DNA of 26,060 nt from Cochliopodium minus (taxonomy: Eukaryota > Discosea > Himatismenida > Cochliopodiidae): assembly GCA_024220525.1 (NCBI GenBank), contig JAMYWO010000375.1, forward strand, positions 4,140-30,199, read 5' to 3'. This document shows positions 1 to 24,700 of the stretch, one piece after another (positions within the stretch are counted from its first letter, which is position 1; every line of letters begins with the position of its first letter). A program made the translations under genes and the position numbers. A model generated the notes under the pieces. It was not told the DNA's origin. It ran no database searches and saw only the letters and a program-made list of their open reading frames with translations.

Positions 1-264
1 ATTAGAATGCGAATTAGATAAAAAATAATTTTGATTGTAAATTTAAAAATAATTAAATATTCATTGAGCAATTTATTCTCCGCGTTTTAATAAATGTTCA
101 TGGGTTTCCATTAACAAAATAATAAAAAAAAAATTATTTGGCCTAATGATAATTGAACGATTTTTATAATAAGAACATCATTCAATTGTTTATCTTTCAA
201 AAAATTCAAAAAATTCTTCTAAAATTTAAAACTGAAAAAAAAATTTTTTATTGTTACAAAATAG
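1..264. other. Non-coding left edge, probably upstream of or intronic to MCM5
   Basis: No convincing coding stretch is seen. Composition is a mix of A and T rather than the strongly T-rich pattern of the plus-strand introns that follow. It therefore looks more like intergenic or 5' DNA than intron, but this is an inference. A plausible splice acceptor (ATAG) sits at 261-264, just before MCM5 homology begins. Confidence 0.4.
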
Positions 265-4491
<4,227 letters not shown>

Positions 4492-4732
4492 AATGAAAGA
4501 AAATGAATTTTTAATTAAATTTACAATTTTCTTTTTAATATTTTTATTTTATTTTTATTTATTCTTTATTTTTTTAAAAACAAAAATTTCTTTTTTTTTT
4601 TTAATCAAAAAACATTTAATAAAAACAAATTTAATTAATTAATCTTTTTGTAATTCCCAACAAACAACAAAGCAAAAATGATGATTAATGAAAAACCACA
4701 AACTTTTTAATAAAAAAGGTTTTCAATTTAAA

Positions 4733-7700
4733 TTAAAAAGATACTGAAAAAGAAAAAAAAAACTTACTTAAAGTAGGTACACCAATAGCTGTTTTGAGAT
4801 TTCTTTTGGTCTTAAAAAATAATTTATGTATTTTAATAATGGTTTAAACTTTCAAAGTTTTTTTTTTTACTGCAAAAACAAGAGTTCCTTGTGAAGTATA
4901 ATCAAACACATTTGGAGGCAAAGTCTTAGAAACCATTTTCTTTATTACAACGGTCAAAGTGTTTCCCTCAAAAAATTTGATTGCAGATGGAGTGAAGATT
5001 CCTTCGTGTTGGTACCAAAATCTGTCTCCGTTACGAATACGGAGGAATTGTTCGAGAATAGAAGCTGAAAATAAAGCCCCGACGCTTGTATCTTCCTTTT
5101 TGTCTTCCAACAATCCACCAAGATATGGGTCCAACAATCTATCGATTTAAAAAAAAAAAATTAAAAAAAATAACCCATAAAAATTGAAAATTTTATTACG
5201 AAACATTGTCTTTTCCATAAAAATTGTTTAAAAGAGTTATGTATGAAGTATTAGAAGTAACACAACTGAAATTGGAACAAACAGGCAACCCATATGCTTT
5301 TCTTGCATCATTGTAACTTCCAATTCCCATTTCCCTTGCTCTCTTTTTTTTTAATAAAGAATTAAAAAATTAAAATTTAAAAATTAAAAATTAAAAATTA
5401 AAAATAAATTAAATTAAAATATTAAATATTGAAAATTAAAAATTGTAAATTAAAAAATTAAAAATTTTAAAATATTAAAAATGGTTTACTTGAATATTTC
5501 TTGCTGCTAAATCTGTTGCAAAATTATTTACTCTCGAAAAGAGAAAATCACGAACATCCTCTGTCATTGATCCGTCCGCAAAATACTGTTTTTGTGTGGA
5601 TATCCCTCTCAAGTAAGGACCTATTCCCACAGACAAAGAAGTTGGATTGTAATATGAGTCTTTCAGAAAAATGTGACCTAAAAAAATACAAAAAATAATT
5701 AAAGTGGCAGAATAATAAAATGAAACCAAAATAAATTCAAAAAATAAAAAAATCAATAATTTTAAATATAAAATCTAATAGAAAATAAAAAAAATTAAAT
5801 TAATCAAATTAAAATTTTAAAAATTTTTTTTTTAAAAAAAAAGTATTTAATGAACCTTTTGATATTACATCTCCTGTTTGACTAATTCTGAAAATGAGAT
5901 TAGAAAGTTCGCTGTGACCGAATCTGAAAGCAACTGCAGAAAAGAATTCGCTTACTTGTGGGTTGATGGTGTTATCATAGGTCTTGTACTCTGGAACGAC
6001 TCCATTCCCCAGTATCCTAGGTAAATATTCTTCAAATGTAATACGTTGAATTATAGCAATTAAGTAACTTCTTGCTAAACGTAAAATAAAAAATTAAAAA
6101 TTAAAAAATTTTAAAAAAGAAAAAACGATAAAATATTTTAAAAAAAATTATTTAAAAAAAATTAAAGAAAAGAAAATTAAAAATAATAAAAAGAGAAATA
6201 ATCAAAAAAAATTTTTTTTTTCACCAGTTTGAAAGCGAACTTCATCACTCAACTTTTTTGACAAAGTGGATGCTATTCTGTTGTGTTGCCTGAAGAAAAG
6301 AGAATATAAAGAGAGTAGAACAGGATTTTCATTTGCACGGGGATCTCCGCATGCATACAATTGTGTTTGATTGTATCTTCCAAAATTAGTCATATTTAAA
6401 AGTGGATTTCCTAATTTAAATTAATAATAAATTAATTTATTTTATTAATTATTTGCAATGTTTTAAAATTAATTTTCCAATTTAAAATTTAGACTCAAGT
6501 TTTATTTTGATATTCATTTTTCAAAATAAAAAAAATAATTTTTACACTTTTAATTAATTAGTTTTTCTGAATAAAAAATTTTTCTTAAATTTAATTTAAA
6601 TTATTAATAATTTTATTAAATTTTTAAAAGTTTTTTGATTTTACCTTTCCCATCATTGTTAAGGGGTAAAATATCTCCGTCTGCACTTTTTGAAGTTTTT
6701 AAAAGACCATTTTTTTGTGTTCTTAATGAGTTTGTTATTTTTGAATTTACTCCATAAATATTTCCCGCATCTATCCAAGGTGTAGCCAAATTATAGTATT
6801 GTCTAGGATTACTTGAGTTGGTTCCTTTTTTAAAAAATAAAAAATAAAAATAAAATTTACAAATCAAAAATCATTAAAAATTTAATTGAAATTCAAAAAT
6901 TTATTTACAATAAAAATTTTAATTAAAATAAATTATTTTATTGGATATCAAAAAAAAAAAAATTTAAAAAAACAAATTTTATTTATTTAAAATCAAAAAT
7001 AAAAATTAAATAAAATTATTTTCAATAAATTGATTAAATTCAATAAAAATAAAAAAAAAAATAAAGAAATTCAAAAATAAATTTAAAATAAATAGATTTA
7101 ATTTTAATAAATTTGTACCAGTTCCATTTATTAGTAAAGCTCTACAAAATTTCATTGTTTTGTTTCCTGTTGAATTTGGATCATAAAAAGGATCTCCTGT
7201 TGGTATTGGAATTGGAAATGATTCACAAGTGGTCGTGCTACTGTCTGGTATGTATACGATATCCCTGCTCATAAACTCTCCCCAATACGTGAGCATCTCT
7301 GTCAAAAACCTATCACTCAAATTTCTGTTTCCAGATTCGAATCTCCCAAAAAAATAATTTGATACGTCTCTTGGTGATGGTAATGTTGATGGAAATCCTC
7401 CATATGGCTAAGATTATAATAATTAAATTCTTTCGATTTAATTTCAGTTAATAGTTAACAAAGATAATTTAATTTCCATTTTCTATTTTTTCTTATTTTT
7501 ATTTATTTATTTTTTTTTTTTTTTTAATTTACCAGTGATGTATTGTCATTATACAATATAGGAGTGGATCTTATTATTTGTTGCAATATCTTTCCATAAT
7601 TCAAATTCATTTGATTATTTCCACTTGAAAGGTTAAAGTTATGAATGAAAAAAAAGAATTATTTTTATAAATTTGAAAGATACCTCCCATCCAAAGAATA

Positions 7701-7763
7701 ATCAGATGATGCAAAGATAGAAAAAATGAAAGAAATGAAAAGAATCAAAATTATTTTCTTCAT
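4733..7763 (-). CDS. Animal-type heme peroxidase-like protein, paralog A (secreted; distal His replaced)
   Basis: Ten exons in transcription order: 7763-7684, 7623-7533, 7407-7119, 6824-6645, 6410-6225, 6074-5856, 5677-5490, 5342-5200, 5138-4871, 4810-4733, about 573 residues in frame. The N-terminus MKKIILILFISF... is a signal peptide. Family signatures: LPSPRD near residue 66, GDPRANE (Arg238 and Glu241, matching the catalytic Arg and haem-linking Glu of myeloperoxidase), FRQHNR, proximal FGH (His329), NIQRAR with the Asn that pairs with the proximal His, DPYLGG, and RNGDRFW. The expected distal segment GQFLDHDL reads GEFMSRDI, so the distal His is Arg105 and the haem-linking Asp is Ser104. 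Normal peroxidase chemistry is therefore doubtful. The exon 5/6 intron (6224-6075) is absent from paralog B. The 3' end is uncertain: reading through the last donor would stop at 4844 instead. No membrane anchor is seen. Convergent with MCM5, 241 bases apart. Confidence 0.88.
7441..7493. repeat. 53-base segment in intron 2 of peroxidase A, identical to one in B
   Basis: This stretch lies inside intron 2 (7532-7408) of paralog A. By eye it matches 10401-10453 in intron 2 of paralog B base for base, while the flanking intron sequence does not align well. It could reflect recent gene conversion or a retained intronic element. Confidence 0.85.
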
Positions 7764-7875
7764 TTTCTTCAAAATTTTTTTTTTTTATTTTTTTTATTAA
7801 AAAAATTCCAAATGAGAGAAATGTACAACAAAAAAGAGTTTAAATGTACAAATTTTTGTTTGACAAAATAAGATG

Positions 7876-10693
7876 TTAATCAAGCAACTTTAAACCAACT
7901 TGCTTTAAAAAAATTAACACAGTTATGGAAACAAGCAAACAAGCACTGACAATAGGGATGATGACACCTGCCAAATAAAATCTGTTTTGCGGATTGTTGA
8001 AATCATAAATAGCGGAGTTGTTTGATCGAGTGAAACAATCGATGGGAAAGATTTCAGAAGGGATGTTTGCAATGATGATATCAGATAATCTCACACCAAT
8101 CTTTTCTGATTGTGAAGCATCAAAAATTCCTTTTTAAAAAAATTTTTAAAAAAAAAAATTTGGGAAAATAAAAAAATAAAAGTTTAAAAAAAATAAATAT
8201 AAAACTTTATTTACCTTTATTTTCGAACCAATATCTGTCCCCTGATCTAATTCTACTAAACTGTTCTGCTATTGCTTTCGAAAAAAGAGGACCAATGTTC
8301 GCTGAACTCATATGAGAAGTAGTGTTTGTTTTCAGTTTGTTTTCCAACACTCCTCCAAGATAAGGATCCAACAATCTAAAAAACAAGTAAAAAATAAAAA
8401 AATAAAAAATAAATAAATTTAATTTAAAATAATTATTCATACTCAACATTATCTTTTCCATAAAAATTGTTTAGAAGTGCAACAATAGTGGAGTTGGAAG
8501 AAACACAATTAAATGTATTACAAACAGGCAAACCATAAGCCTTTCTAACATCGTTGTAACTTCCAATACCCATGTCCCTTGCTCTCTTTTTTAAAAAAAA
8601 TTAAAAAATGAAAAATAATTCTAAATAAATTATTAAAAATTAATTTTTTTTTTAAAAAATTTTTTTACTTGAATATTTCTGGCTGCTAGATCCGTTGCAA
8701 AATTGTTTACTTTTGAAAACAAAAAATTTCTGAGATCTTCTTCCATTGCTCCATCTACTGAGTATTGTTGTTGGGTACAAGTCCCTCTCAAATAAGGACC
8801 TATTCCCATTTCCATTGTTGAGGGGTTGTAATATGAATCCATAAGTGACAAATGACCTAACAAAAAAGTATATAAATTTACTAAAAAATAAAAAAATAGT
8901 AAAAAATAAAAATAAAAAATAAAAAAATATAAAAAAAAAAATGTTTATAATAAAATGCAATAATAAAATAATAAATTATTTAAAATAAGAGATGAAAATA
9001 ATAAAAAAAAAAGGAATTTAAAAAATAAAAAAATAAAATTATTTTTTAAGAACAAAAAAAAAAAAACTACCTTGAGCTATTACGTTACCAGTAATAGATA
9101 ATCTAGTTATTATATTCGATACTTCCAAATGCCCATAGCTAAAAGCAACTGCAGAAAAAAACTCGCTTATTTGAGGATTTGTAGAATTTTTGTATCCTTT
9201 GTAAGCAGGGTAATAGTCTATTCCCATTAAATTGGGGAAGTATTCGTTCAAAGTAATGGATTGTATTTGTGCAATCACCAAACTTCTTGCTTCCTGAAAA
9301 ATTTCTTCATCAGATGATTTGGAAGATAGATCTGCAAGTCTGTTGTGTTGTCTGAAGAAAAGAGAATATAAAGAGAGTAGAACAGGATTTTCATTTGCAC
9401 GGGGATCTCCGCAGGCATACAATTGGGTTTGGTTGTATCTTCCAAAATTAGTCATATTTAAAAGTGGATTTCCTATTTTCAAAAGAAAAATAAATTAATT
9501 ATTTTAAAGTTTTTAACAATGTTTTTAAAATTAATTTTCCTAAAAATAATTGAGTTTATTTTAATAGTTAATTTTTTAAAATAAAAAAAAATTAAATTTT
9601 CTAGCTTTAAAAAAAAATTATTATTTTCAAAACTTTTAAAAAAATATTTTTTTGAAATTGTTTAAAATTTTTTAAAAAAAAAGTTTTATTTTACCTTTCC
9701 CATCATTGTTTAATGGTAACAAATCTCCATCTACGCCTAAAGATGTTTTGAGTTTTCCTCCCTTGAAGGTTCTTAATATACTTGTCATATTATAATTTCT
9801 CCATAAATATGACTACCATCTAACCAAGGTGTAGCCAAATTATAGTATTGTCTCTGGTTTTTCGAGCTTGTTCCTTTTGGAAATAAAAATCAAATAAAAT
9901 AAAATTGTACGAAATAAATTTAAAAAAAATTTTAAATAATAATCAAAAATTTAGTTTAAATCAAAATAAATAATAATAAAAATTGTATAAGAACAAAAGT
10001 AAAAAAAAAAACTTCATTTAAAATCAAAAAAAATAAAATAAAATTGTAAGGAATAAACTTTTAATTTTAAAAAAATTGTACCTGTCCCATTTATTGGTAA
10101 AGCTCTACAAAATTTCATTGTTTTGTTTCCATTTGAATTTGGATCAAAAAAAGGATCTCCTGTTGGTATTGGAATTGGAAATGATTCACAAGTGGTCGTG
10201 CTACTGTCTGGTATGTATACGATATCCCTGCTTATAAACTCTCCCCAATAAGTGAGCAATTCAGTATTCAATTTGGTATGGTAATTCCTCGTTCCTATTT
10301 CAAATCTTCCAAAAAAATAATTTGATATTTCTCTTGGAGAAGGCAATGTTGATGGAAATCCACCAAATGGCTTAATTAAAAAAAAAGAAAAAAAATTAAA
10401 ATTTCAGTTAATAGTTAACAAAGATAATTTAATTTCCATTTTCTATTTTTTCTCATTTTATATTTTTACCTCTGAGATATTATCATTATAATTAATCGGA
10501 GTGGTTCTTATAATTGGTTGTCCAGTCTGCCCATAATTGGGGAATTTTAAATTATTGAAACTATAATATTTTTTTTTTGTTATAGTTTTGAAAGATTCTC
10601 CAATTTTCAATACCTTCCATCATATGTGTAACTAGATATTGCAAGTATATATACAAAAAATGAAATTAAGAACAATAATTTAAAACCATTCAT
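7876..10693 (-). CDS. Animal-type heme peroxidase-like protein, paralog B (membrane-anchored; frameshifted in exon 4)
   Basis: Tandem paralog of A, starting 113 bases upstream of A's start side. Nine exons: 10693-10614, 10560-10470, 10370-10082, 9873-9695, 9472-9071, 8856-8669, 8585-8443, 8375-8215, 8129-7876. Exons 1, 2, 3, 6 and 7 match A's counterparts exactly in length. Exon 4 is 179 bases against 180 in A. One base is missing around 9798-9799, just after the codons for HIYG, and the frame then hits TGA within a few codons. Without that change the product would be about 595 residues. The signal peptide, GDPRANE, FRQHNR, YGH proximal His and RARDMG are all present. The distal site reads GEFISRDI, with Arg105 at the distal-His position. 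The last exon adds a transmembrane helix (about [20 protein letters not shown]) and a short basic tail, both absent from A. It could be a recent pseudogene, or the missing base could be an assembly error. Confidence 0.82.
10401..10453. repeat. 53-base segment in intron 2 of peroxidase B, identical to one in A
   Basis: Partner copy of 7441-7493, lying in intron 2 (10469-10371) of paralog B, in the same orientation and at a similar place relative to the splice sites. Confidence 0.85.
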
Positions 10694-10921
10694 TTCCTCA
10701 AATTTTTTATTTAAAAAAATAATTTTTCTTTTTGAGAAAAAGAGGAATAAAAGAGAATACATATTAACTTGAATTGGTGAATAAAGTTCAAACTATCTCA
10801 AAATATATGAAAAAATCCATCAAGATCACATTCAATTTAAATAAAAAAAAAAAAAAAAAAAAAAATTTAATATTAATTTGGGAAAACTCAGATATTTCCC
10901 TTTTTTCAAAAATTATTAGAT
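10694..10921. promoter_or_regulatory. Divergent intergenic region between peroxidase B and the ankyrin gene
   Basis: 228 bases separate two divergent start codons, so the stretch must carry both 5' regions. It is AT-rich and holds a 23-base A run at 10843-10865, 56 bases before the ankyrin ATG. No specific promoter motif can be defended. Confidence 0.45.
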
Positions 10922-13889
10922 ATGCAAAAGGAAGATTTTGAAATATTGGACAATTTGAATGAATGTGATCTTGATATAAAGAAGATCGAAGATCTTTTTT
11001 TGAAGAAAGAAATTAATCTCAATATGGTACAGGAGAATAATTTCAATACAACATATTTCCATCATATATGCACGAATCCATCATCAAATGTGGAAATAAT
11101 AAGATATTGCGTCACAATAAAGGCGGATATAAATTTGTCGAACAAATCAAATCAATCAGCATTATATTTCGCTTGCAAGAATAAAAAACCCGATGCAGAG
11201 ATAATAAACTATATGATAGAAAAGAAATGTAGAGTGAATGAGAGAAATAAATACTCTATGAATACACCATTGCACAGTTTATTCATAAAAAATAAAAAGA
11301 AGATAAATCATCCCAATGATTTCAAAAACAATAGAAAAGGAAATGGTTCGAACAATGATATGGATAAAGGTGATAAAGATAAATGTTGCATAAAAAACAT
11401 AACACTGGAGATGGTGAAACTCCTGGTAGAAAACAAAGCAGATGTAAATGCCCTCAACAAAGATAATCTAACACCAATCTATGTAGCGTGTAAAAACAAA
11501 CACATGAAAGTGGAAATCATCAAGTATCTGATCGAGAAAAAGTCAAATCTGACATACCACGACAAGAACGGACATGGAGCAATACATCTCGCTTGCCAGA
11601 ACTCCAAAATAAATTTGGAGATCATAAAGAGTTTGGTAGAAAACAAATCAGAGGTCAAATCTCTCAATTTTCAACCAATTTACTACGCATCAACAAACAA
11701 AACATTTTCAAAAGGCAAAAAAAAAAAAAATTTTTGAGAAAAAATTAATAAGAAAAAAAAACTTTACAAATTTTTAATTTTAATTTTATAAAAATTTACA
11801 TTTTAGACGTAATACAATATTTGGTCGAAAAGAAAGCAGACCTTAATTTGGGTCTTACACCACTCATTGAAGAGTTGGGAAAGAAACAGTTTTCTCTGGA
11901 AAAAATCAAGTTTTTCGTCGAACTGAAATCAGATCTGAACCACAAAAACTCGATGCAACCTCCCCTATTCCGAGCGTGCACCAACATTCACATGTCATTG
12001 GAAGTACTAGAGTATCTCATAGAAAAAAAGTCGGGATTAAATGGCAAGAACAAATCCAACGAAAATGCACTGTATCAACTCTGCAGCAAAAACTCTTTCT
12101 CCCTGCCTTACTTCCAACTTTTGGTAGAAAACAAAGCGGACATTAATTTAAAGGATGCCAACTCTATAACTCCTTTTTATGTGGCTTGTGCGAATAAGCT
12201 GGACAGTGAAAAGATAGAATACCTCATGAAAAGCAAAGCAGATGTGAATGTGCAGGATCTTTTTGGGAATCCCCCTTTTTTCTTCTACACCGGAAACAAT
12301 GACAACATGAATATGATGCAGCTTTTCGTGCAAAACAAGGCAGATGTGAACATCCAAAACAATAGAGGAGAGACCATCCTCCACAGGGAGTTCCTGCACA
12401 AAAACTTTAGCATGGAAACAATCAAGTTTTATGTAGAAAACCAAATCGATTTGAATCTCAAGGAAATCAAGAATCGTAATCCCATCCACTACTTGTTCGA
12501 AAATGGTGATTTCATCGATGAAATTGATTATTTGATCCAAAAAAAATCCGATCTGAATTGCAATGTGGAATATTATGGCACCCCTCTTCACATCTCCGTC
12601 AAAAAAAACTCTCCTCTGAAAGATCTGAAAAAGCTGGTCGATAACAAAGCAGATCTCAACATTTTGGACAGCTACCACAAATCCCCTCTTCTGTACGAAT
12701 GCAAAGGGGGAAACAAAGTGGAGATCATCCAGTTTTTGGTTGAAAATAAATCTGATTTGAATCTGATCAATGAGTTTGACAATCAAACTCTCCTGCATCT
12801 TGTCTGCAAAAATTCTAATTTTTCATTTGATGTGGTAAAATTGTTGATCGATAAAAATAATGCGTTGATCAACATGAAGGATAGGATCGAGGAGAATATC
12901 CCTCTCAATTTTTACTTGCAGGAGCAGGATTTGAATATCGATGTCATCCAGCATTTTGTTGAGAGCAAATCCGATTTGAATGTGATGAATATCAACAAGG
13001 AGATCCCTCTTCACATCGCCTGCAGAAACATCCACATCAATCTCGATATCATCAGGTATTTCGTCGAATTCAAATCTGATCTCAACAAAATCAACAAATA
13101 CAACGATAACATCCTCCATTTCTTGTGCAGAAACAAAAATAGCAACAAAGATTTCATCAAATACTTGTTAGAAAGCAAACTTTCTCTCAAAATCTCCGGC
13201 AACAACACTTCTCCTCTTCACGTCGTTTGTGGCAACAACATTTCGATAGATATCATAAAATTGTTGCTGGAAATCAAGTTTGATGTCAACACCAAAAGTA
13301 CCCTCAACAACGAAATACCTCTTCATCTCGCCTGCAAAAATAAAAACACCTCACCCGAAATCATCAAGTTTTTAATAGATAATAACTCTGATATTAATGC
13401 AAAGAACAAATACGGAGTTCAACCCATTCAATACTTGGAAAAAAACGAAAACAAAACGCTTTTACAAAACGAAGATCTCTTTTACATCTTTGTTTTTGGT
13501 GGTGTGGGTGTTTCTGTTCTTTCTTTATTTTCCAAGTTTGAATTTGTTCCTCACATCACCAAGAAATTGGAAGAAGGGACTTTGTGGAGTTATCAAACTA
13601 ACAAATACCTTCCTTCTTTTGTACAAAAGAAAATACAAACATTTATTTTATGTGTAAAGTTTTTTTCGAAGAGAAACAAGGTAAAATTACTTTTTTGTTT
13701 TAAATTTAACTTTTTGATTTAACTTTGAACTAAAAAAAGGTCATCTTTCCAAAACCTATTTTACTTATCGTTTTGCAAACATTTGTTACATATCATCTTA
13801 AAAACCCTGAATCGGTTGCTCCAAACAAAAGAAAACAAATTGAGAATAAAAAAGAAAACAGAAAAAACAAAAATAGGAAAAAGAAATAA
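10922..13889 (+). CDS. Ankyrin-repeat protein with C-terminal hydrophobic segments and Lys-rich tail
   Basis: Three exons, 10922-11714, 11807-13680 and 13740-13889, encode about 938 residues. From about residue 30 to 850 the protein is a near-continuous array of ankyrin repeats. The period is about 35 residues, with a recurring core of the type LVENKADVN and a helix of the type PLHLACKN, so the role is presumably protein binding. After the last repeat come a hydrophobic stretch (about LFYIFVFGGVGVSVLSLF), a linker, a second hydrophobic stretch in exon 3 (about PILLIVLQTFVTYHL) and a strongly basic tail ending NRKKK. This suggests a membrane-tethered scaffold. Intron 1 (11715-11806) has no usable GT donor. 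The junction that keeps both frame and repeat spacing uses GC (AAAG/GC) with a normal AG acceptor, giving NKTFSK joined to DVIQYLVEKK. Intron 2 is GT-AG. No partner or pathway can be named. Confidence 0.85.
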
Positions 13890-16729: not shown

Positions 16730-18060
16730 TTAAACACTCAACCCCCAATGCTCAAAAACAGATAAATGCATCATGATCTCGATGATGAGTGGCTTGGGAA
16801 CAGTGAGGGAGATGACATTCTTGCTGGATAGAGAATGGTCGGAAGAGAGCTTCATTCTAGTGACACAAAGCAAAAAATGAAAGCATTTGTACTTAAACTC
16901 GGGAGGAAAGGATCGGAAAGATTCCCTATTAAGATGAATGGGATTCCATACTTGAATATTATCTTCATAAAAATATTTGGTTGAATAAATAAATAGCTGA
17001 TCTATATTCTTCCCAGTTTTCGAAGATACCTCCAAGAATAACATGTTATTATCTTTAGAAAATTTCTCCGCCAAATCTTTTTGAACTTCTCGTTTTTCCT
17101 CCAAATCGCTTTTCGATCCCACCAAGACAAACTTTGTTGATTTCTTATCTTTCAAAAGAGTTTTCCAGTTATGATATTTATTACATATATTCGTAAAGCT
17201 TCTTCTGCATATTATGGAATATACAAGTATGACAATATCTGATCCATTCAAATAATTACTGTATGAAAAAAAAGAGGTGGAATTATTGAGAAAATATTTA
17301 GAAAAATAATTTTTTTTATTTGATGGGAATAATTTTTGAATCTTACACTTTGATTGATGAATATTCTTCTTGTCCAACTATTTTATGAATATAAAAGGTT
17401 AATGATTAAATAAATCTATGATTCTATTTCAATTTATAATTTTATCTTCTTGGATCGGAGATTAATTTTCACCATTTATATATTACTGAATATAATTTTT
17501 TTTTTTTTCATTTTCCTTACTTAATACTATCACCTCCATGTTTATTTCTCCATTGGATAAGCTCAAATCTTTATTCCATTTTTGTTCAATTTCGCTGTCG
17601 AGATATTCGTCAAATTCGTTGTTGAAATATTGCTTTCCAATAGCACTTTTCCCTATTGATTGATTGATAATTATAAAAAATCATTGAATATTATTTGAGG
17701 GAAATTAAATAAGTGAACGAAATAAAAGTAAATATATTTTTTTATTTTTTTTTGGTTTCCATTTTGTTCATAAACAAATTATATTGAATTCTATATATGA
17801 TTTTTTGTATCCATTTTATAAGAAATAATCTATTTACCACAACCAGAATCTCCAAATATCTTTTATTGTTGAAATGAAGAAAAAAAAAATGATTAGAATT
17901 AATTAGATGATTGGAAGATATTAAAAGGATATAAAATCCTTTTTAATTTTTTTACCCCAATTTTAATTGAATCTTTCTTTAATCTCTTTGCTGCTTTCAT
18001 ATTGTTGTATCTTTCTATATTTGCATCCCTTCTTCTACATTTGAACTTGGAATTCCCCAT
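16730..18060 (-). CDS. Divergent Ras-like small GTPase with C-terminal extension
   Basis: Five exons, 18060-17956, 17859-17838, 17652-17521, 17377-17347 and 17258-16730, encode about 272 residues in frame. G motifs of the Ras superfamily: P-loop GDSGCGKS (residues 38-45), switch II GQEEYSSIKVNYLNGSD (88-104), ILVYSI, G4 as SKSD (145-148, normally NKxD), and G5-like SSKTGKN. The Asp of the G3 DxxG motif appears to be Val85 (VLIGQ), so magnesium/GTP handling may be altered. About 100 residues follow the GTPase core (from roughly NPIHLNRESF to the end). They match nothing I recognise, and the protein ends HWGLSV without a CAAX prenylation box. The N-terminal 35 residues are basic. Two exons are micro-exons: 22 bases encoding IFGDSGC, and 31 bases encoding GQEEYSSIK. 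Superfamily membership is secure; the subfamily is not. Confidence 0.82.
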
Positions 18061-21781: not shown

Positions 21782-24700
21782 ATGAAAAAAGAAGATGATA
21801 TAGATACCAAACGAATTATCTACCATCAACCCAAATTGGATTTGAATTATATAAGATCATTAAGTACCAAGATTGAATTCGAAAAGGCCATAAATTGTGA
21901 TATGTCACAATATCCAATATTTGAACCGCCAAATCTCATAAAAACTGTATATCGTAAATATATTTTTATAATACTCAAAATTAAAATAATAAATGATGAT
22001 TATAACACCCCTATCTAATCAAGAAAATGGAATAAATGTGAGGATAGTATTAGATAAATTCAATAAGATAGAAAATGCGAGATGTTCTTGCAATCAACCA
22101 TATTGGTGTTATCATATAATTGCAACATTGATCATATTTTCAATAGAAGATGAGAATATCAATCTTAATTTTGAAAATTGTAAAGATGGGATAAAAAAGA
22201 TGGAAAGAACTGATTTGGAAAATTTATTATTAACTATTATATCCTCCGATCCCAAGATGATATCAAAGATATCGAAAGATTATAAATATGGTAAGGAGAA
22301 TGATTTTTCAATTCAAACAAAATTAAAATTAAATTAATTTATCACAATTAAAAGAAAATAAAACAAAAGAAGATCCAATTTCAGTTGTGAACACTTTGTA
22401 TGACCTGAAAGTTATAGATATGAAATTAAAAACATTAATTGATGCATGGATAGATGGATCGGTGAACACAGAGCAAAATTGTAAGTGCAAATGCCACATT
22501 TCCAACGAAAATGCTTGTAATACTTATGATTTCTCTTTTTTCTTTTAAAAAATAATTCACTTTTTTTTCACCAATAATAGCAAGTTTTTGTATTAATTGT
22601 AAACAAGAACACCAAAATACCCATGATTTTAACCCAGTCTACAAATTTTTGGAAGACTCACAAAATATTGTATTGAACTTGTTGAGACTTCGGGATATAG
22701 ACAACATGTTTGATGTTCTTTTTACAATCACAAAAAGATTTTTGTCAATAGATTTAAGAGATTTGCCTCTTACATTCAACCAGACAGCCTATTCAAGTTC
22801 AATAAGGCTAGTGGACAGCTTATGGGTTAAAGTTTTGTTAGAATTAGAAACCAGTACCAATCCCAACGTTGAAGTTTCTTCATTATCTGTCATTTCTGCT
22901 TCTAAGAAAATTGAGTGGACCAAAAAGATCTTTGAGCTGATTAATGAAAGGGAACTGAAAATCGACAATTTCATATTCGGTGGGTTGGTGGAATCTTTGC
23001 TGAACGGATGGGATACTCCTTTGATCATTTCTATTCTTTCTGGCACTCCAGGTCTGTTATGCAAAGAAAGCTCCGCTTTGGTCCAAGATTACAGAGTGGA
23101 AAAGCTTTTAAAGTTGAACAAGAAAAAAGAATGTCTCAATTATTTACTTGCAGTTCCTCCCAACCAATCTTTCATCTCCAAAAATAGAGATTGGAACAAA
23201 CAGATCTGTTCCTTGTTGATTGGCTTCAACCAAATCCAAAAGTCTTTCAAGTACGCCAAAGAACTCAGAGTCTTCGAAGAAATCTGGGATGTTTCTAAGA
23301 CTTATTTTGAAGGTGGCTACATGAAAGAATGCTTCGAAATTTTGGCCCCTTCTTTTATCACTCTTTCTTTTGCTAACCACAATTTCAGCACGAAAGAGGC
23401 TCTTTTCACTCTCATTGCCAAATCCATTCCAGAAAAGTTGTTTTCCAACCAAATCAACAGCGAGAAAAACAATTTGGTAAACCAAGTGGCCCTTAGAATG
23501 TCCACAAGTCTTTCTTTGTTCAACGAGCATGAATTCCGTTTGTTTTTCGATTTAGCCAAGATCTTTGTCGAAAAGGATCTTTTTATTTATTCCATGCACT
23601 TCATCACCAAAATGATAGAGATCCCTCATAGCATGAACGAAGAAGTCACTTCTTTTGTCATCGAAACTACCATCAAATGTGGAACTGATTATGTCAAATT
23701 GATCTCCAAGAGAATTACCGTAGAGGTTAAACTTTCTCCAGCCAATAATTTATTGTTCGCAAAGAAATTCTTTGAAGCTGGTGTATTTTTTTTTTTTATT
23801 TAATCATTCTCTTTGGTATTAATCATTTATTATTTAATACAGTATTACCAAGAGTCTGGCATAATAGGTAAATTAAATCTTAATCTTTTAAAAGAGTATT
23901 TAATTATATTATTATTCTTTTGGTAGCGAGATTCGGACTTATCAACATAGCCAAAGAAGATAATTCATATTTTAATCCTATTGTTTACCACTTTGCAAGG
24001 ATCCTCCTTCAAGTATCTTCTATCATATCGACAATGCACCTACTCAGGCCAATAACCCTGCTCAAAGCCATCTTCGCAGTCTTGTTCCCCACTCTAAAGA
24101 ACACTTATTGTTTGTTTTTATTATCCAGAAACTTGTTTGTCACCATCAAACAAATCAAAGACAACACTTTGACTGAGCTGGATTGTATGCCTGAAGAATA
24201 CAGCTTGAAGTACTTTGAAAATGTCAAAGATAATCTCTATTTGATCGTTCCTGCTTTGATGCTTGCTTTGATCGCCAACCGCAAGTTTTTCGACAACAAA
24301 GTTACTCCTCCCACCTTTTCTCCTCTCTACAATATGCCAGAGGGACACAAAGAGAACCCGAATTGGAAGAACATTTCACAAAACATCAGAGAACTCTTCC
24401 AGGTTTTCTTAATCAACTATGATCTCTCCATTTCCTTCTTTTGTTCTACCAGCGATGCCAAATATATAAACGATTTTGTCTTCGATAGCCATGTTCTTTC
24501 AAATTGTCTAAAAGTGGAATCTCAAAACGAAAACAAACTGGTGATAACCAAGATCGCTCCAGAACAAAACACCAAAGATTTCATCAAGAAGATGACCGCT
24601 TTCAACAACTATGTCGAGCAACAGAACACCACGCAGAAACTGCTTCCTGAGCTGATCATCAATTTGATGAACTCTGTTGTTGTGCTTCCCAGTGATAATG

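Follow-up and report, generated by a model that had tools for sequence, protein, structure and literature searches.

Arginine at the distal histidine position in a tandem pair of peroxidase-fold genes of the protist Cochliopodium minus

Members of the peroxidase-cyclooxygenase superfamily share a distal GQxxDHD signature, from which families 4 and 7 are exempt, and halide binding is attributed to the conserved distal Gln (PMC4420034). The distal His is described as the acid-base catalyst of compound I formation, with Arg assisting (PMC6153280). Dictyostelium peroxidase A (DdPoxA, 6ERC; Gln97, His101, Arg233, Glu236) has Ile100 in place of the Asp that would form a haem ester, a loss reported to be tolerated with one ester link left; the enzyme, which has been produced in Pichia, is active and secreted (PMC5787809). 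Dual oxidases (family 7) display an extracellular peroxidase homology domain followed by a transmembrane (TM) stretch, are described as devoid of the proximal His and are fused to EF hands and a NOX module (PMC4420034). In Drosophila Duox the proximal and distal His are both said to be missing (PMC4654585), and loss of the distal His is in itself already known.

Gene A of Cochliopodium minus, the subject of this report, has the same domain as DdPoxA and shares its proximal triad, its catalytic Arg and the Glu of the haem ester; the ester Asp is absent from both. Unlike DdPoxA, it has kept neither the distal Gln nor the distal His. It resembles the dual oxidases in the succession of a peroxidase domain and a TM stretch. 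In contrast to them, it retains the proximal His329 and stands alone, its model stopping after the TM stretch; membership of the dual oxidases was rejected on these grounds, there being no EF-hand or NOX fusion. DUOX as the closest relative was likewise ruled out by the sequence scores against A, which are higher for 8s6c (319 bits) and DdPoxA (271) than for DUOX1 (183). The 8s6c entry, labelled Lactoperoxidase and presumably the cyanobacterial LspPOX, and the bacterial peroxidases, which we take to be of the family 6 type, are closest to A by sequence, but have the distal His throughout (77/77 aligned, of the best 80 of 437). DyP peroxidases belong to a different superfamily, and their combination of a distal carboxylate with Arg is compared with gene A as a possible way of working only, no membership being claimed.

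The window, that is, the whole stretch of 26,060 nucleotides analysed here, spans positions 4140-30199 of contig C370 (JAMYWO010000375.1) in an assembly of 44.65 Mb and 598 contigs (GCA_024220525.1). Its GT-AG introns mark it as eukaryotic; those of genes A and B have a GC content of 9.6% (A+T 90.4%), and the whole window is 73.5% A+T. For comparison, Anaeramoeba ignava is reported to have introns of 91.86% A+T, close to this figure, but an overall A+T content of 80.65% (PMC11550330), which speaks against a relationship. Two tandem minus-strand genes, A and B, both encode PF03098 proteins (positions are those of the window):

4635..7763, minus strand: gene A; 11 exons, 584 residues, no stop, GT/AG at 10/10 introns
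7763-7684, 7623-7533, 7407-7119, 6824-6645, 6410-6225, 6074-5856, minus strand: exons 1-6 of gene A, splice model
5677-5490, 5342-5200, 5138-4871, 4810-4768, 4702-4635, minus strand: exons 7-11 of gene A, splice model
4635..4702, minus strand: last exon of gene A, with a predicted TM stretch and a short tail (hydropathy)
7876..10693, minus strand: gene B, tandem paralogue; 9 exons, GT/AG at 8/8 introns

Homology and splice sites guided the manual choice of exons in gene A; exons 10-11 were placed by splice choice alone. The An_peroxidase domain covers residues 23-537 (Pfam PF03098, E 6.3e-124, profile positions 3-530 of 530); a Pfam scan up to E 1 returned PF03098 only, and the DyP profile was unmatched. 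The N-terminus is hydrophobic and forms a putative signal peptide, judged from hydropathy. Gene B is an open paralogue except for a single frame change in exon 4 (9873-9695), which may be either true decay or an assembly error. Its C-terminal TM stretch, again by hydropathy, lies within one exon (8129-7876). A Partiti_capsid match to an exon of gene B was disregarded, being weak, below cut-off and overlapped by the peroxidase match. Elsewhere in the window, an MCM OB domain match at 236-514 (plus strand) opens an MCM helicase gene of several exons, the later ones being putative assignments. Two long plus-strand open frames rich in ankyrin repeats lie at 10922-13722, a Ras-family GTPase open frame at 16733-17377 on the minus strand and a SWIM zinc-finger open frame at 21993-22334 on the plus strand.

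The haem-pocket residues of gene A, and the distal motif of gene B, are located as follows:

7258..7281, minus strand: distal motif of gene A, GEFMSRDI (E101, S104, R105, D106), in exon 3; full reading YWGEFMSRDI
7278-7276, minus strand: E101 codon of gene A, distal Gln changed to Glu
7269-7267, minus strand: S104 codon of gene A (AGC), Asp changed to Ser
7264..7266, minus strand: Arg105 codon of gene A (AGG), replacing the distal His of 83/83 aligned relatives
7263-7261, minus strand: D106 codon of gene A, part of the distal motif
6328..6339, minus strand: Arg238 and Glu241 of gene A in GDPRANE (catalytic Arg and haem-ester Glu), kept
6286..6288, minus strand: Gln255 of gene A in RQHNR, replacing the Glu (REHNR) of 83/83 aligned relatives
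5914..5916, minus strand: His329 of gene A (FRFGH), proximal haem ligand, kept
5496..5498, minus strand: Asn409 of gene A, hydrogen-bond partner of the proximal His, kept
10221..10244, minus strand: distal motif of gene B, GEFISRDI, with the same SRD as gene A

The initial annotation had read YWGEFMSRDI in gene A, with the distal His replaced by Arg105 and the haem-linking Asp by Ser104. The spliced model confirms this reading and its numbering, as it does the claim that the proximal His, its Asn, the catalytic Arg and the haem-linking Glu are retained (His329, Asn409, Arg238, Glu241). The interval given for it, 7069..7269, proved ill placed, covering the distal motif only from S104 and then extending into intron 3. 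The loss of His and Asp was correctly seen; the change is, however, wider, and Gln101 to Glu and Glu255 to Gln had been missed. Similarly, the motif does occur in gene A as described, but its presence in the neighbouring gene B and the A/B gene-conversion tracts (see below) had escaped notice. Neither gene carries the GQxxDHD signature, with GEFMSRD in A and GEFISRD in B; the RxxE motif (R238, E241) and the proximal His with Asn (H329, N409) are present in gene A, and Arg412 is also kept. Two ways out of the distal change had been proposed for checking, and neither was found. A six-frame pattern scan over 4600-7900 and 7860-10800 yielded no alternative exon with a DHD motif, only the two SRD motifs. 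Gene A contains four His in total (residues 256, 329, 350 and 503) and, since the first of them is residue 256, no other His fits the distal place and none is alignable there.

A family search of the genome itself reveals at least seven further genes with PF03098 matches besides A and B. Six of these are membrane-type paralogues (C182, C485, C167a, C167b, C16 and C135) that read DHD at the distal site, as GQFxDHD or, in the C167 pair, AQLMDHD. Like gene A, these paralogues display a hydrophobic N-terminus, a PF03098 domain, a C-terminal TM stretch and shared introns; unlike it, they keep the Gln, Asp, His and Glu255. A YxxL-type tail ends five of the six and is absent from A, B and C16. At codons 104-105, the paralogues use GAT CAT (5/6) or GAT CAC (one), and gene A AGC AGG; a base-calling slip is very unlikely, since six of six bases differ from GAT CAT. 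The seventh gene, C21 (L014, about 2137-3979), is a divergent PF03098 gene whose distal site reads GVNFFIHDF; it entered none of the counts and is perhaps, as a guess, of dioxygenase or cyclooxygenase affinity. At locus L010, two near-identical DHD peroxidase genes stand in tandem (1426-3385 and 3661-5620), their starts 2235 nt apart.

Bacterial and archaeal genomes were scanned for relatives; 437 were confirmed and the best 80 (34-40% identical) kept. One of the two scan patterns stopped just past GQF/GEF, which favours Gln or Glu there and exerts no selection for His. Of these 80, 77 align over the distal site, and L042, L077 and L085 were dropped because their N-terminal parts fall out of order in the alignment. 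The 77 rows have His in 77/77, Gln in 77/77 and Asp in 76/77 (Ala in L034). For the dropped rows, tblastn located GQFLSHD in L042 and GQFLDHD in L077 further along, and none in L085; Ser at 104 thus has a precedent in L042, with the His still present. L042:2501-4129 and L077:2045-3628, both from Planctomycetota isolate KLAP164, carry the two parts of the domain in swapped order within one open frame, C-terminal part first, which looks like a circular permutation of the peroxidase domain. Among viral contigs, 35 stretches matched a pattern and none was confirmed as a relative.

Across the 83 rows formed by the six own paralogues and the 77 bacterial sequences, Q101, H105 and E255 are found in 83/83 and D104 in 82/83. 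Q101, H105 and E255 are the only columns (among those at least 90% conserved) that are invariant in 83/83 yet changed in both A and B; D104 is also changed in both. At the remaining pocket positions, the best 80 of 437 bacterial relatives have Arg238, His329 and Arg412 in 80/80, Glu241 in 79/80 and Asn409 in 78/80; the rows that differ are among the dropped L042, L077 and L085. Over the 102 columns at least 95% conserved in bacteria, A and B each keep 82 and the DHD paralogues 83-91. Gene A departs from the consensus at 25 columns of at least 90% conservation, many of which also vary in the DHD paralogues, and its other departures mostly concern columns less strictly kept than 101, 104, 105 and 255. 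Gene B alone departs at four further columns invariant in 83/83 (326, 468, 499 and 501), including Arg326 beside the proximal His, and may on this account be on its way out.

The maximum-likelihood tree, rooted at its midpoint, comprises the eight own proteins together with every third bacterial row (26 of 77). Support is 100/100 for the group of own proteins and likewise for A and B as sisters, and the pair joins C182 and C16 at 96/89; six rows, A and B among them, are flagged for unusual composition. As A and B nest among the paralogues, with DHD on both sides of their branch, the SRD motif, and hence the replacement of His by Arg, is derived. An intron at residue 58 is common to the seven own genes compared (C167b, with the exon lengths of C167a, was not among these), and another at residue 154 is common to A, B, C182 and C135. 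Over the domain, A and B have 68.3% in common, and A is 43.5-51.2% identical to the own DHD paralogues. Judged by profile and ancestry, gene A is a divergent member of the superfamily lying outside the DHD peroxidases.

Three stretches of exceptional likeness between A and B lie at the following places in gene A:

7119..7296, minus strand: apparent gene-conversion tract 1; codons 95-154, holding E101, S104 and R105; dS 0.097
6277..6410, minus strand: apparent gene-conversion tract 2; codons 214-258, holding R238, E241 and Q255; dS 0.152
7440..7493, minus strand: 54-nt stretch within intron 2 with no A/B difference

Outside the two tracts (475 codon pairs), dN is 0.366 and dS 1.69, the latter near saturation, for a ratio of about 0.22: A and B diverged under purifying selection. 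The earlier statement that the rest of the frame is intact agrees with this record and with the unbroken 584 residues of gene A. Within the tracts taken together (105 codon pairs), whose borders were drawn by eye after inspection of the alignment, dS is 0.12 and dN 0.023. The longest identical A/B run is 85 nt, a length reached in 0/10,000 shuffles of codon order. The low dS, this run and the intron identity point to apparent recent gene conversion between A and B. Inside the tracts, too, silent changes outnumber replacement changes per site (Fisher p 0.0085 or 0.0017, according to the rounding of fractional counts). Because the distal motif, R238 and E241 sit inside the tracts, gene B provides no independent support for them; the proximal His, Asn and Arg412 are present in both genes outside the shared tracts. 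Conversion may have preserved the likeness of both pockets, or may merely have struck these exons.

The reading that we prefer, with a probability of about 0.5, is that gene A encodes a membrane-anchored haem-binding protein with a rebuilt distal pocket, which would have lost the classical His-dependent cycle and would act as a small-ligand-binding partner or regulator. Given the role of the distal His and the tolerance of DdPoxA to loss of the ester Asp, A probably still binds haem and runs the classical cycle poorly. A and B descend from a regular DHD peroxidase of this genome, and both are putatively anchored in a membrane with the fold facing outward or into a vesicle. The distal pocket has been rebuilt (Glu101, Ser104, Arg105), with the proximal haem ligand and its partners kept. 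His329-Asn409 would still hold the haem, possibly aided by a single ester bond through Glu241, and in a protein devoid of the distal His the peroxidase and halogenation cycle would be lost or very slow. The Arg/Glu-lined pocket may instead receive peroxide, an anion or a diatomic gas as its small ligand; carrying haem, the product of gene A would then act on the DHD peroxidases and NOX-like proteins of the genome as their partner or regulator. The view of the initial annotation that the gene was repurposed and is not dead is partly supported, gene A being open, under purifying selection and in possession of the proximal His, its Asn, the catalytic Arg and the haem-linking Glu; A and B probably changed job rather than died.

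The retained Arg238 and the new Glu101 would also fit an active enzyme. A less probable reading is that Glu101 takes the proton of H2O2 and that Arg105 and Arg238 stabilise O-O cleavage, in convergence on the Asp-Arg couple of DyP peroxidases. The catalytic Arg and the proximal residues are still there, and A and B both combine Gln-to-Glu with His-to-Arg, where 83/83 relatives have Gln and His. In a B-class DyP, the distal Asp is reported to deprotonate H2O2 with a distal Arg alongside, but the role of that Arg is left unsettled in the same account (PMC6153280); furthermore, the carboxylate at position 101 may fall short of the peroxide, and loss of the distal His in Drosophila Duox is described with no mention of a new pair gained, as far as that account goes (PMC4654585). 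The fuller proposal, that the Glu/Arg pair replaces Gln/His in a protein whose haem chemistry, with peroxide or otherwise, continues, as an independent DyP-like arrival kept alike in the tandem genes by conversion of the pocket segments, appears doubtful. A report of Arg at the distal position in the peroxidase-cyclooxygenase superfamily was not found in a partial literature covered by titles and abstract openings.

Gene A could also be a haem-free ectodomain with a structural task in folding, adhesion or the binding of partners. The parallel is human DUOX1, whose peroxidase homology domain is reported to keep the fold with no haem density seen (PMC7794343). The alignment of A with DUOX1 covers this domain, and A is, as predicted, membrane-anchored too. 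The comparison is nevertheless strained, which makes this reading unlikely: the haem-ligand His is described as absent from human DUOX1, and A keeps His329, Asn409, Arg412, Arg238 and Glu241; human DUOX1 and 2 are even so said to bind haem weakly (PMC6368334). That A and B are decaying duplicates, with the distal changes as early damage, is suggested by the frame break in exon 4 of gene B and by its extra changes at invariant sites. We regard such decay as very unlikely, in view of a gene A open across 11 exons, the dN/dS of about 0.22 outside the tracts, the six differing bases at codons 104-105 and conserved columns retained almost as often as in the DHD paralogues.

Ferrochelatase, COX1 and cytochrome c1 gave no match in a six-frame family search of the whole genome that did find multi-exon genes of the A/B type, its control genomes being prokaryotic and organelle contigs possibly absent from the assembly. 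An [FeFe]-hydrogenase is encoded on C1. Contig C334 shows two NAD_binding_6 matches, no An_peroxidase match, and three open frames with Ferric_reduct matches (3/3, above cut-off in 2/3); judged by their motifs, the two genes there are probably NOX-like rather than ferric reductases. At face value, this would be a low-oxygen protist that takes haem from outside, yet has eight membrane-type peroxidase-fold genes. With the distal His lost and the haem ligand kept, gene A would separate haem binding from peroxidase chemistry. It would also provide a stand-alone, membrane-anchored counterpart of the dual oxidase peroxidase domain, the function of which has been called obscure in a review.
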